Positions 6,019 to 7,942 of a DNA stretch of 10,000 nt are shown here, one piece after another. The DNA is taken from the NCBI GenBank assembly GCA_020217035.1, contig JAIWOG010000125.1, positions 1 through 10,000 on the forward strand, written 5' to 3'. This DNA comes from Magnetospirillum sp. GTDB taxonomy: Bacteria; Pseudomonadota; Alphaproteobacteria; Rhodospirillales; Magnetospirillaceae. How positions within the stretch are numbered: the stretch's first letter is position 1; the number at the start of each line of letters is the position of its first letter. A model generated the notes under the pieces. The model saw nothing but the letters and a program-made list of their open reading frames with translations, ran no database searches and was not told the origin of the DNA. The translations under genes and the position numbers were made by a program.

Positions 6019-7446
6019 TCAAAACGCCCCCCGTCCCGCGGACGGCGTCGTCGGCGCCTCCAACAAGCGGTCAAGATTTGCCAACACCCCCAAAGAGGCT
6101 TGTTGGACACGGGCGATTCTCTCCATGGCGATCTCGACCTGGCCGGCATTGTAGGCGCGAACCGCCTCGATGCCTTCGCGGTGTACCTGCCGATGCGGCT
6201 CTTCCAGAGCGGCGAAGGCCGGATGCGAGCGAAAGGGCATGGACCCTGGGCCGTAATACCACTTGCCCAACCGGCATTGTTGTTCGCTTGACAATTCCTC
6301 GGCCCGCAAGGCGGTGCGGCCGATCAGCATGTCCACTAGACGCTTCTTCCACAAGACGTGATCGGCCTTGGCCAGCATGATGATCTTGTTGGGAATGTCT
6401 TGCTCCGCCAACAAAGCCAACAAGGCGGCGACCTCGCCTTCGACGTTGATCAGGGCGGACGAGCTTTTCTCGATGGCAATCGCATTGGATTCGGCCAGAT
6501 GCGCCATTTTCTGCACCCCGCCCGATATCTGATTGGCGGCGGCGGCCTGCTGAGCCAATATCCGCGACACTTCCGCCATGCTGTCGGTCGCGTCGGCGAC
6601 GGTCTGGCTGACCGTCCCCATGCGCCCCCCCATGGATTGCATGGACTGACGCCCCTTGGCGATGGCGTCACTGCCGCGTGTCATGGTGTTGACGATGACC
6701 GCCATCTCCTGCCGCAGATTGGCAACGCGGGTGCTGATGTCGGTGGTGGCGCGGGCCGTCTGATTCGAAAGCGCCTTGACCTCGCCGGCGACCACGGCGA
6801 AGCCCTTGCCGGCCTCGCCGGCGCGGGCCGCCTCGATGGTGGCGTTCAAGGCCAGCAAATTGGTCTGGCTGGCGATCTGGTCGATGGAGGCGACGATCTC
6901 GGCATTGGCCACGGCCCCCTCGTTCACGGTCATCGAGATGCTGACCGCATCCTTCAACATGCGCGAGGTGAACATGCCAAGCTTGCGGTTCTGCTCGTCC
7001 ATCCGGTCCATCGTCTCGTTGATGCAATGGCTGTATCGCACGAACTCGCCACGCAACCCCCGCGGCATGATCTTGCGGTAATACCGAGAGGACAGGGCCG
7101 CCCCCATGGCGGCGTCGGCTTCCTTGGCGAAAGCTTCGAACTGATCCAAGGCCCGATTGATGCTGCGCTGCAAGCGGCCGATGCCGCCCGTCCCCCGAAT
7201 GTTCAGGACGCGGACGCGCAGATTGCCCATGGCGGCCTGCTCCATGACGTGAATAGCCTTGGCCACGCCTGAATTGGCACGCCGCAGGAAATGGAAACCC
7301 ACCGCGTTGGCGACCACGGCGGCGCAGACCAAGGCGGCGGTGACCCCATGCCCTTGGACGGCCAGCATGACCGCGGCCACCCCCCCGGCGGCGGCGGACA
7401 TCAAGCAGGCGACAAGCGCCTTAGATATCGAGGACAAAGCGATCAT
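6019..7446 (-). CDS. Membrane methyl-accepting chemotaxis transducer with C-terminal CZB zinc domain
   Basis: Chemoreceptor-type signal transducer, 475 aa, expected to drive CheA/CheW. Residues 8-30 and 34-54 are two hydrophobic helices joined by only a few residues (QGHG), so the protein is anchored by a hairpin and has no periplasmic ligand domain. A HAMP-like linker follows (about 55-108). The signalling domain has the conserved hairpin tip at about 191-227 (IASQTNLLALNATIEAARAG, then EAGKGFAVVAGEVK). The C-terminus is a chemoreceptor zinc-binding (CZB) domain: His363 in HVLW, Cys391 in CRLGKW, and His418 and His422 in HRQVH, the expected 3His/1Cys set. I chose the ATG at 7446 because a G-rich RBS precedes it; one at 7476 is possible. 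It overlaps the PAS gene by 26 nt, which suggests translational coupling. The PAS protein probably supplies the missing sensor. Confidence 0.93.
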   Translation of the reverse strand: MIALSSISKALVACLMSAAAGGVAAVMLAVQGHGVTAALVCAAVVANAVGFHFLRRANSGVAKAIHVMEQAAMGNLRVRVLNIRGTGGIGRLQRSINRALDQFEAFAKEADAAMGAALSSRYYRKIMPRGLRGEFVRYSHCINETMDRMDEQNRKLGMFTSRMLKDAVSISMTVNEGAVANAEIVASIDQIASQTNLLALNATIEAARAGEAGKGFAVVAGEVKALSNQTARATTDISTRVANLRQEMAVIVNTMTRGSDAIAKGRQSMQSMGGRMGTVSQTVADATDSMAEVSRILAQQAAAANQISGGVQKMAHLAESNAIAIEKSSSALINVEGEVAALLALLAEQDIPNKIIMLAKADHVLWKKRLVDMLIGRTALRAEELSSEQQCRLGKWYYGPGSMPFRSHPAFAALEEPHRQVHREGIEAVRAYNAGQVEIAMERIARVQQASLGVLANLDRLLEAPTTPSAGRGAF

Positions 7447-7942
7447 AATCCCCCCCCTTTTCCGCCAGGATGTCATGCAGCCGCGCCCAACCGGCCTCCA
7501 ATCCGGCCTTGCGATCGGCTGTCCCTGCCTCGATGTCGCGCAAACTGGCGTAAAGCGGCTCTATTACAGCCAGCGCTTGCGCGGTTGCGGTGCGCCGGTT
7601 GGAATGGTAGCCGACAACCTTGCCGGCCTCGTCGCGGTCGGGGGTGACGTGTGCCAGCACCCAATAATGGTCGCCGTTCTTACAACGGTTGACCACATAG
7701 GCGAACACTTCGTTTCCCGCGCCGATCCGTTCCCATAGAAGCTTGAAGATGGTGCGTGGCATGTGCGGATGGCGAATCATGCTGTGCGGCTGACCCAGCA
7801 ATTCCGATTCCGTGTACCCCGCCAAGCGGATGAAGACATCGTTGCAATAGGTGATCCGGCCGGTGGCGTCGGTCTTGCTGACGATGATCTCATCATCACC
7901 GAACGTCCGCGCGACACCGGTCAAAAGCTTGCTGGCAACCAT
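7421..7942 (-). CDS. Soluble Aer-like PAS sensor protein
   Basis: Cytoplasmic single-PAS protein, 173 aa, with no membrane segment and no output domain. It aligns with the E. coli Aer PAS domain almost without gaps, as I recall that sequence: Asn34, AGYTESELLGQPH (41-53), RHP at 57-59, Trp70, and KNGDHYWV at 88-95 with Tyr93. In Aer this domain binds FAD and reports redox or energy state. The residue at position 60 is His where Aer has Asp, so FAD binding is likely but not certain. A helical tail (about 121-160) follows. I chose the ATG at 7942 because GGGGGAGGGG precedes it; a start at 8002 would add 20 residues unlike the family. Its stop lies 26 nt inside the chemoreceptor gene, the likely partner. 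Confidence 0.88.
   Translation of the reverse strand: MVASKLLTGVARTFGDDEIIVSKTDATGRITYCNDVFIRLAGYTESELLGQPHSMIRHPHMPRTIFKLLWERIGAGNEVFAYVVNRCKNGDHYWVLAHVTPDRDEAGKVVGYHSNRRTATAQALAVIEPLYASLRDIEAGTADRKAGLEAGWARLHDILAEKGGDYDRFVLDI

Follow-up and report, generated by a model that had tools for sequence, protein, structure and literature searches.

The window, i.e. the whole stretch of 10,000 nucleotides of Magnetospirillum sp. DNA analysed here, carries on its reverse strand a gene for a stand-alone PAS protein and, directly downstream, a gene for a chemotaxis transducer, referred to as cetB-like and cetA-like (Table 1). Gene order, strand, end points and the 26-nt overlap given in the first-pass annotation were all borne out. 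The ATG of cetA is placed 23 nt ahead of the stop codon of cetB, in a different frame; with two frames and two stop codons, PAS and signalling domain are not joined in one chain as in a single-chain Aer. Elsewhere in the window, a family 5 solute-binding protein is encoded divergently from cetB (8160-9839, +), and a family 3 solute-binding protein at 2109-2912 (-).

Table 1. Features of the cetB/cetA-like locus (positions of the window).
Feature	Position	Strand	Basis or remark
cetB-like gene, stand-alone PAS protein, 173 aa	7421..7942	-	Pfam PAS_3, Aer PAS 8dik, MSR-1 paralogue alignment
Eight-G run inside cetB, just 5' of the cetA start; Shine-Dalgarno-like	7450..7457	-	
cetB/cetA overlap, 26 nt	7421..7446	-	different frames
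cetA-like gene, transducer of 475 aa: hairpin - HAMP - HAMP - signalling domain (87 aa missing) - CZB	6019..7446	-	
Membrane hairpin, residues 12-53	7288..7413	-	hydropathy; model helices 6-30, 34-72
Two tandem HAMP-like units, ~residues 54-155	6982..7287	-	borders estimated from model
MCP signalling domain match, kinase-control tip sequence intact	6496..6963	-	
Deletion junction: 87 residues (261 nt) of N-terminal signalling helix gone	6892..6901	-	
CZB zinc domain, 3His/1Cys ligands	6160..6360	-	

The upstream gene encodes a stand-alone PAS protein of the Aer type that holds FAD-pocket residues, as is characteristic of CetBA receptors. It matches Pfam PAS_3 (E 9.9e-15), and its likeness to the Aer sensor domain, claimed from the sequence alone, is corroborated by the best solved match, in which residues 14-134 align with the PAS domain of E. 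coli Aer (8dik, E 3.5e-33). In an alignment with the paralogues of M. gryphiswaldense MSR-1, seven of the eight residues that PMC12442639 names for the FAD pocket of CetB2 are present (H53, R57, F66, W70, N85, V99 and R116), while N55 of CetB2 is S54 in the window. All three residues whose replacement is reported to have left CetB2 non-functional (PMC12442639) are retained.

On the transducer, Pfam places MCPsignal at residues 162-317 and CZB at 363-429, with nothing else above the Pfam cut-off. The hairpin consists of two hydrophobic segments (residues 12-30 and 35-53 by hydropathy). It leads into a helix pattern (34-72, 88-118 and from 134 onwards) that recurs in the models of the window protein and of its orthologue and suggests two HAMP-like units. 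No Pfam HAMP is found in the window transducer at E<=0.1, and among four relatives tested the domain lies below the cut-off in two and is absent in two. The four CZB ligands H363, C391, H418 and H422 form the 3His/1Cys set of a putative zinc site and are invariant in 54 aligned sequences, window included. The gene adjacent to cetB and co-oriented with it thus encodes a transducer with a membrane anchor, HAMP units (by model) and no sensor. This agrees with the previous description of a sensorless, Aer-like transducer as regards the hairpin, the HAMP-like units (which rest on the model and not on Pfam) and the CZB domain. It does not agree as regards a complete signalling domain: the MCP signalling hairpin is short of 87 residues of its N-terminal arm, an incompleteness that the first-pass annotation overlooked.

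In order to place the locus, 41 genomes (the genome of the window and 40 relatives) were searched, 32 of which gave matches at E<=1e-20. From the matching rows we selected 71 CetB-like genes as stand-alone; rows with long open frames, or with matches ending near residue 150 or earlier, were dropped (e.g. G015:C255, a frame of 334 aa), and G008:C1:2748515 of MSR-1 (match 3-118) was retained as an evident CetB copy. A CetA-like sequence lies directly downstream of 65 of the 71 genes in the 41 genomes searched, so that the adjacent pair proved to be widely conserved; this adjacency is not chance. In 60 cases the downstream sequence is an MCP gene with the tip motif. The five others comprise L066, with a complete transducer missed by the tip motif, L083, cut by a contig end, L065 and L098, with a broken CetA, and the first copy of L121, with CetA in two frames. 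Six genes have no CetA-like sequence downstream, and for one of these the contig ends after 171 bases. Distance matrices of CetB and CetA correlate across the 60 pairs (r 0.80, a value reached in 0 of 2000 permutations, without control for the species tree). Hydropathy assigns a hairpin to 45 of the 60 transducers; of the others, 7 show a long loop, 6 lack membrane segments altogether and 2 possess just one.

The genome of the window itself holds two further stand-alone PAS genes (at C244 and C43), each with an adjacent MCP gene, as well as a fused Aer of 565 aa, among 51 MCP signalling-domain matches (49 above the curated cut-off). A contig scan of further genomes, confined to the best 80 loci of more, yielded 83 classed rows: 35 pairs, 25 fused or long proteins, and 23 lone, run-off or other cases. 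At least two of these 35 pairs (L164, L175) are untrustworthy because of implausible offsets, and one of the 35, again among the best 80 loci of more, has a CZB domain (L132, Rhodopseudomonas palustris JSC-3b).

Overlap of the two genes is frequent in the family. The start codon of cetA is found at -20, -23 or -26 in 39 of the 60 pairs (21, 17 and 1, respectively) and between -1 and +95 in the other 21. A Shine-Dalgarno-like run of >=4 precedes the start in 31 of the 39 overlapping pairs, vs 22% of 5050 control positions inside cetB genes.

The transducers of 12 of the 71 loci, window included, carry a CZB domain, and all twelve start at -23: this start is common to all 11 scored CZB-type pairs, and L066 has it too by its tblastn start. 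Three of these loci belong to MSR-1 (L063, L071, L127). The CZB domain and the 26-nt overlap had been put forward as traits that distinguish the window pair from CetA/CetB. Both are present; the CZB domain is no peculiarity of the window, given the 12 of 71 loci, and overlapping pairs have been published. Two forms of CZB-type transducer can be discerned. The simple form comprises seven loci of ~562 aa (475 in the window), with 165 residues from tip to CZB in 6 of 6 measured. The other form comprises five loci of ~645-657 aa, in which an additional segment separates the signalling domain from CZB and this distance is 259 or 268. These five are L116, L119, L123, L124 and L127; in L127, the sole one tested, Pfam reports PilZ. 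A CetA with the extra segment could join c-di-GMP, zinc and FAD inputs.

Several other members of the family deserve a brief description. At L057 (G000:C244), L072 (MSR-1), L067, L068, L074 and L084 the CetB-like gene ends 11-13 nt 5' of an MCP of 598 aa, with two membrane segments ~170 residues apart; this protein seems to have a periplasmic domain of its own in addition to a CetB neighbour. The transducers of L079, L090, L093, L117, L121 and L128 (381-386 aa) are CetA-like without a hydrophobic segment, apparently forming soluble bipartite receptors. L137, the CetA of an Azospirillaceae MAG, has ~80 additional residues before the signalling helix which, by eye, resemble a third HAMP unit. 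For M. gryphiswaldense, four cetBA pairs of overlapping organisation and a lone CetB5 beside a CheY paralogue are reported (PMC12442639); with L072 we count five CetB-MCP neighbour pairs in MSR-1, as compared to the four of that paper. L114 (MSR-1, 2748515) is a copy of CetB that is degenerate at its C-terminus and closely resembles the one at L063. It adjoins a gene that reads like a response regulator and is probably the CetB5 of PMC12442639.

Compared to the MSR-1 orthologue (562 aa), the 475-aa window transducer lacks 87 residues, all of them in the N-terminal (inbound) arm of the hairpin; the outbound helix has its full length. The spacing from HAMP2 to the tip is 76 residues in the window vs 156-163 in the 41 other relatives (of 60) in which the motif could be located; among the 120 database homologues listed of 488, every one of the 29 with a located motif has 163. 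On the outbound side, 110 of 111 measured listed database homologues have 165 residues from tip to CZB, and so has the window. A loss of equal size in the inbound helix was found neither in the 59 other relatives nor in the 120 listed database homologues. Because this fixed motif ruler missed many proteins (18 of 60 relatives and 91 of 120 listed database proteins), we added an alignment ruler, a local alignment that covers only changes within the aligned part. Of its 180 entries, in which two proteins are represented twice, once per set, three differ in length by >=10 at a place no more than 120 residues from the tip: the window, P0051 and P0095. P0051 lacks 91 residues (13 heptads) on the opposite, outbound arm; it is a single member, on a contig of 2030 bases. 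P0095 lacks 16 residues at -69 from the tip, and the next nearest change, in P0113, adds 40 residues at -122. Arm length is not perfectly rigid, as P0095 and P0113 demonstrate.

The AlphaFold2 model of the orthologue displays two unbroken long arms (134-295 and 297-434), with a pLDDT of 77-84 around the tip and a mean of 87.6. In the model of the window protein (mean 79.1) the turn is widened to 209-218, the outbound arm is broken at 271-276, and pLDDT drops to 39-48 over residues 201-240, as compared to 77-84 at the matching place of the orthologue. This low confidence is weak evidence, since a single chain was modelled, from an alignment that has a gap at the lesion. As only the inbound arm is shortened, the arms of the hairpin would no longer match (~54 vs 138 residues, estimated from the models), and the outbound arm of 138 residues may overshoot the inbound one by ~12 nm (0.15 nm per residue, HAMP2 end estimated). 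In the orthologue, EIV is encoded at both ends of the missing block, with 6 of 9 bases alike, and the window retains one EIV; such a pattern could follow from a deletion between short direct repeats.

This deletion bears on two statements of the first-pass annotation. That the two proteins joined end to end make an Aer fits the family and is wrong for the window copy, because the block of 87 signalling-helix residues is absent. The proposed combination of FAD and zinc inputs in one receptor is unlikely to exist in working form in the genome as assembled, owing to the one-sided deletion. A CetA lesion beside a retained CetB is not unique to the window: at L098 (G018:C1:4187) and L065 (G007:C42:59655) a broken or internally deleted CetA adjoins a full-length CetB.

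We consider it probable that the locus is a CetBA locus by descent, whose transducer has recently been damaged and now fails to signal or mis-signals beside an intact CetB. Damage of the transducer may be tolerated thanks to the other bipartite pairs and the fused Aer encoded in the genome. At positions conserved in >=90% of the other rows (leave-one-out on 47 of 54 aligned rows), the window transducer shows 0 changes in 126 columns; four other rows also have 0, and the rest have 1 to 27 of 126-131. This rules out decay in the remainder of the transducer and leaves a lesion that is recent, tolerated or an assembly error. The lack of decay elsewhere, the preserved frame and the intact tip and CZB sequences count against damage, as a working protein would match these observations too. 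The gap of 87 residues might thus be an artefact of assembly or sequencing, the organism itself having an ordinary full-length CZB-type CetBA receptor. Besides the undecayed remainder of the gene, the state of the genome, a draft of 334 contigs at 94% completeness, speaks for an artefact, and so does the finding that no second sequence of this species' gene is among the 120 listed of 488 homologues (the best, from MSR-1, has 72% identity). However, the ends of the block bear no long repeat beyond the shared EIV with its 6 of 9 bases, and the reading frame is preserved. Misassembly with the missing helix placed on another contig was examined and rejected: the segment is found on no other contig, the best match in the genome being 45% identical and within another MCP. 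All in all, we regard an artefact as unlikely, yet as the most serious competitor of damage.

Appreciably less probable is a functional short-armed transducer, which would bind CetB and signal via a rearranged bundle, or act as a decoy titrating CetB, CheW or CheA. The 126 unchanged columns, the intact tip and CZB ligands, the in-frame deletion and the case of P0051, where 91 aa are lost from the opposite arm alone, would suit such a protein, but arm lengths otherwise hardly vary, a second deletion of this kind is absent from the 59 other relatives and the 120 listed homologues, and the model of the window protein has no confident tip. Lastly, one fused Aer-like chain might arise through a frameshift or slippage on the eight-G run, which is situated in the overlap region immediately 5' of the cetA start; a +1 shift would bring the two frames together. 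This programmed event was rejected, since the long run is not shared by relatives, where GGGGGTG, GGGAGTG and others stand in its place, and the conserved feature is the Shine-Dalgarno-like run ahead of the conserved ATG. In addition, the published CetB2 and CetA2 work as two proteins (PMC12442639), and a fused product appears highly improbable.

Judging from sequence, the locus belongs to the CetB/CetA-type bipartite energy-taxis receptors by descent and not as an established working receptor, because its signalling hairpin is incomplete. In the intact form, CetB would sense the redox state of the cell by means of FAD and bind to CetA at the HAMP region, as proposed for CetBA2. CetA would relay the signal along the long antiparallel hairpin to CheA/CheW and thereby presumably act in taxis, and the CZB domain, which joins the outbound helix at the point where this is back at HAMP level, may contribute a signal from zinc or oxidants. 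Translation of both genes might be coupled through the overlapping start and the ribosome-binding-like site inside cetB. In the window copy, the in-frame deletion of 87 inbound-helix residues probably disables the transducer, a loss that would be masked by the C43 pair, the C244 pair and the fused Aer.

For the intact simple CZB-type CetBA (seven of 71 loci, the damaged window included; L063 and L071 in M. gryphiswaldense MSR-1), we tentatively put forward, as a possibility clearly less likely than not, that two redox inputs of different chemistry converge on one joint, and that the zinc or oxidant state gates the FAD signal. CetB with its FAD would dock at the HAMP units. With both signalling arms fixed in length (163 and 165 residues), the zinc site of CZB would be kept at the height of HAMP2. 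CZB domains are reported sensors of zinc or oxidants (PMC13370339, PMC8262984), and CetB, CZB and chemoreceptors are named together in one paper listed, on Campylobacter CheO; within the portions of the literature covered, a test of CZB modulating CetB signalling was not found. Should this idea be true, the window would represent a natural experiment, in which the locking of the arm lengths is broken and both sensors are intact.

Taken together, a locus of a draft genome can be placed in an established family. Receptors of the bipartite type with CZB, in the simple form and in that with a PilZ-like segment, occur in a genetically tractable model bacterium, and their near-constant arm lengths provide a testable geometry for the way in which a cytoplasmic FAD sensor and a zinc domain might both work on one HAMP joint. 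The dual-input idea seems worth testing in M. gryphiswaldense rather than with the window copy. The case also calls for caution, as domain hits may conceal a lesion that probably disables a receptor.

A Foldseek search with the orthologue model returned 15 matches below E 0.001, all of them chemoreceptors, and added nothing specific. E. coli Aer, with a PAS domain homologous to that of the window along 120 residues, is built in the order PAS, hairpin, HAMP and signalling domain, with one HAMP and no known CZB; unlike the window, it is one chain. In C. jejuni the gene order is cetA, then cetB, and for the chemoreceptors TlpD and McpA we know of no CetB partner gene. As in the window, a PAS protein and a membrane HAMP transducer make up one energy-taxis receptor in C. 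jejuni CetA/CetB (Elliott and DiRita 2008, PMC2628428; PMC13401364); in contrast to the window, no CZB is mentioned for it in the relevant passages of PMC13401364. TlpD and McpA share with the window transducer a C-terminal CZB domain with 3His/1Cys (PMC6715182, PMC13370339, PMC8262984), but are soluble (PMC8262984).

The pairing as such is not new, because overlapping bipartite receptors have been published in the same genus (PMC12442639); bipartite receptors are also described in a 2026 review (PMC13401364). CetBA2 of M. gryphiswaldense is reported to be an FAD-dependent aerotaxis receptor with FAD in CetB2, a role in avoiding oxygen, and an interaction of CetB2 with CetA2 in the two-hybrid assay; neither CZB nor zinc appears in the main text of that paper (PMC12442639). 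We infer that L078 is CetBA2, because the eight FAD residues of that paper fall on L078. Like the window, it belongs to the same genus and has overlapping cetB and cetA genes for a stand-alone FAD PAS protein and a sensorless membrane transducer. Unlike the window, its transducer has 436 aa without CZB and a full-length signalling hairpin, and its overlap is 23 nt and not 26. The apparent counterpart of L078 in the genome of the window is the C43 pair (L058), with 381 of 436 transducer positions identical. The assumption of an Aer-type receptor split in parallel to CetA/CetB is thus supported by homology, by layout and by the published CetBA of the same genus.

The closest relative found is the L063 pair of MSR-1 (76% identity in CetB, and 72% in CetA over residues 162-475). 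A shared genomic site was considered and rejected, as the 17 kb around L063 are without the other genes of the window that were tested, and rplY lies elsewhere. L063 has the same 26-nt overlap and the same CZB ligands as the window. In contrast to the window, its transducer, identical to P0001, retains the segment of 87 helix residues and thereby the length of 562 aa.
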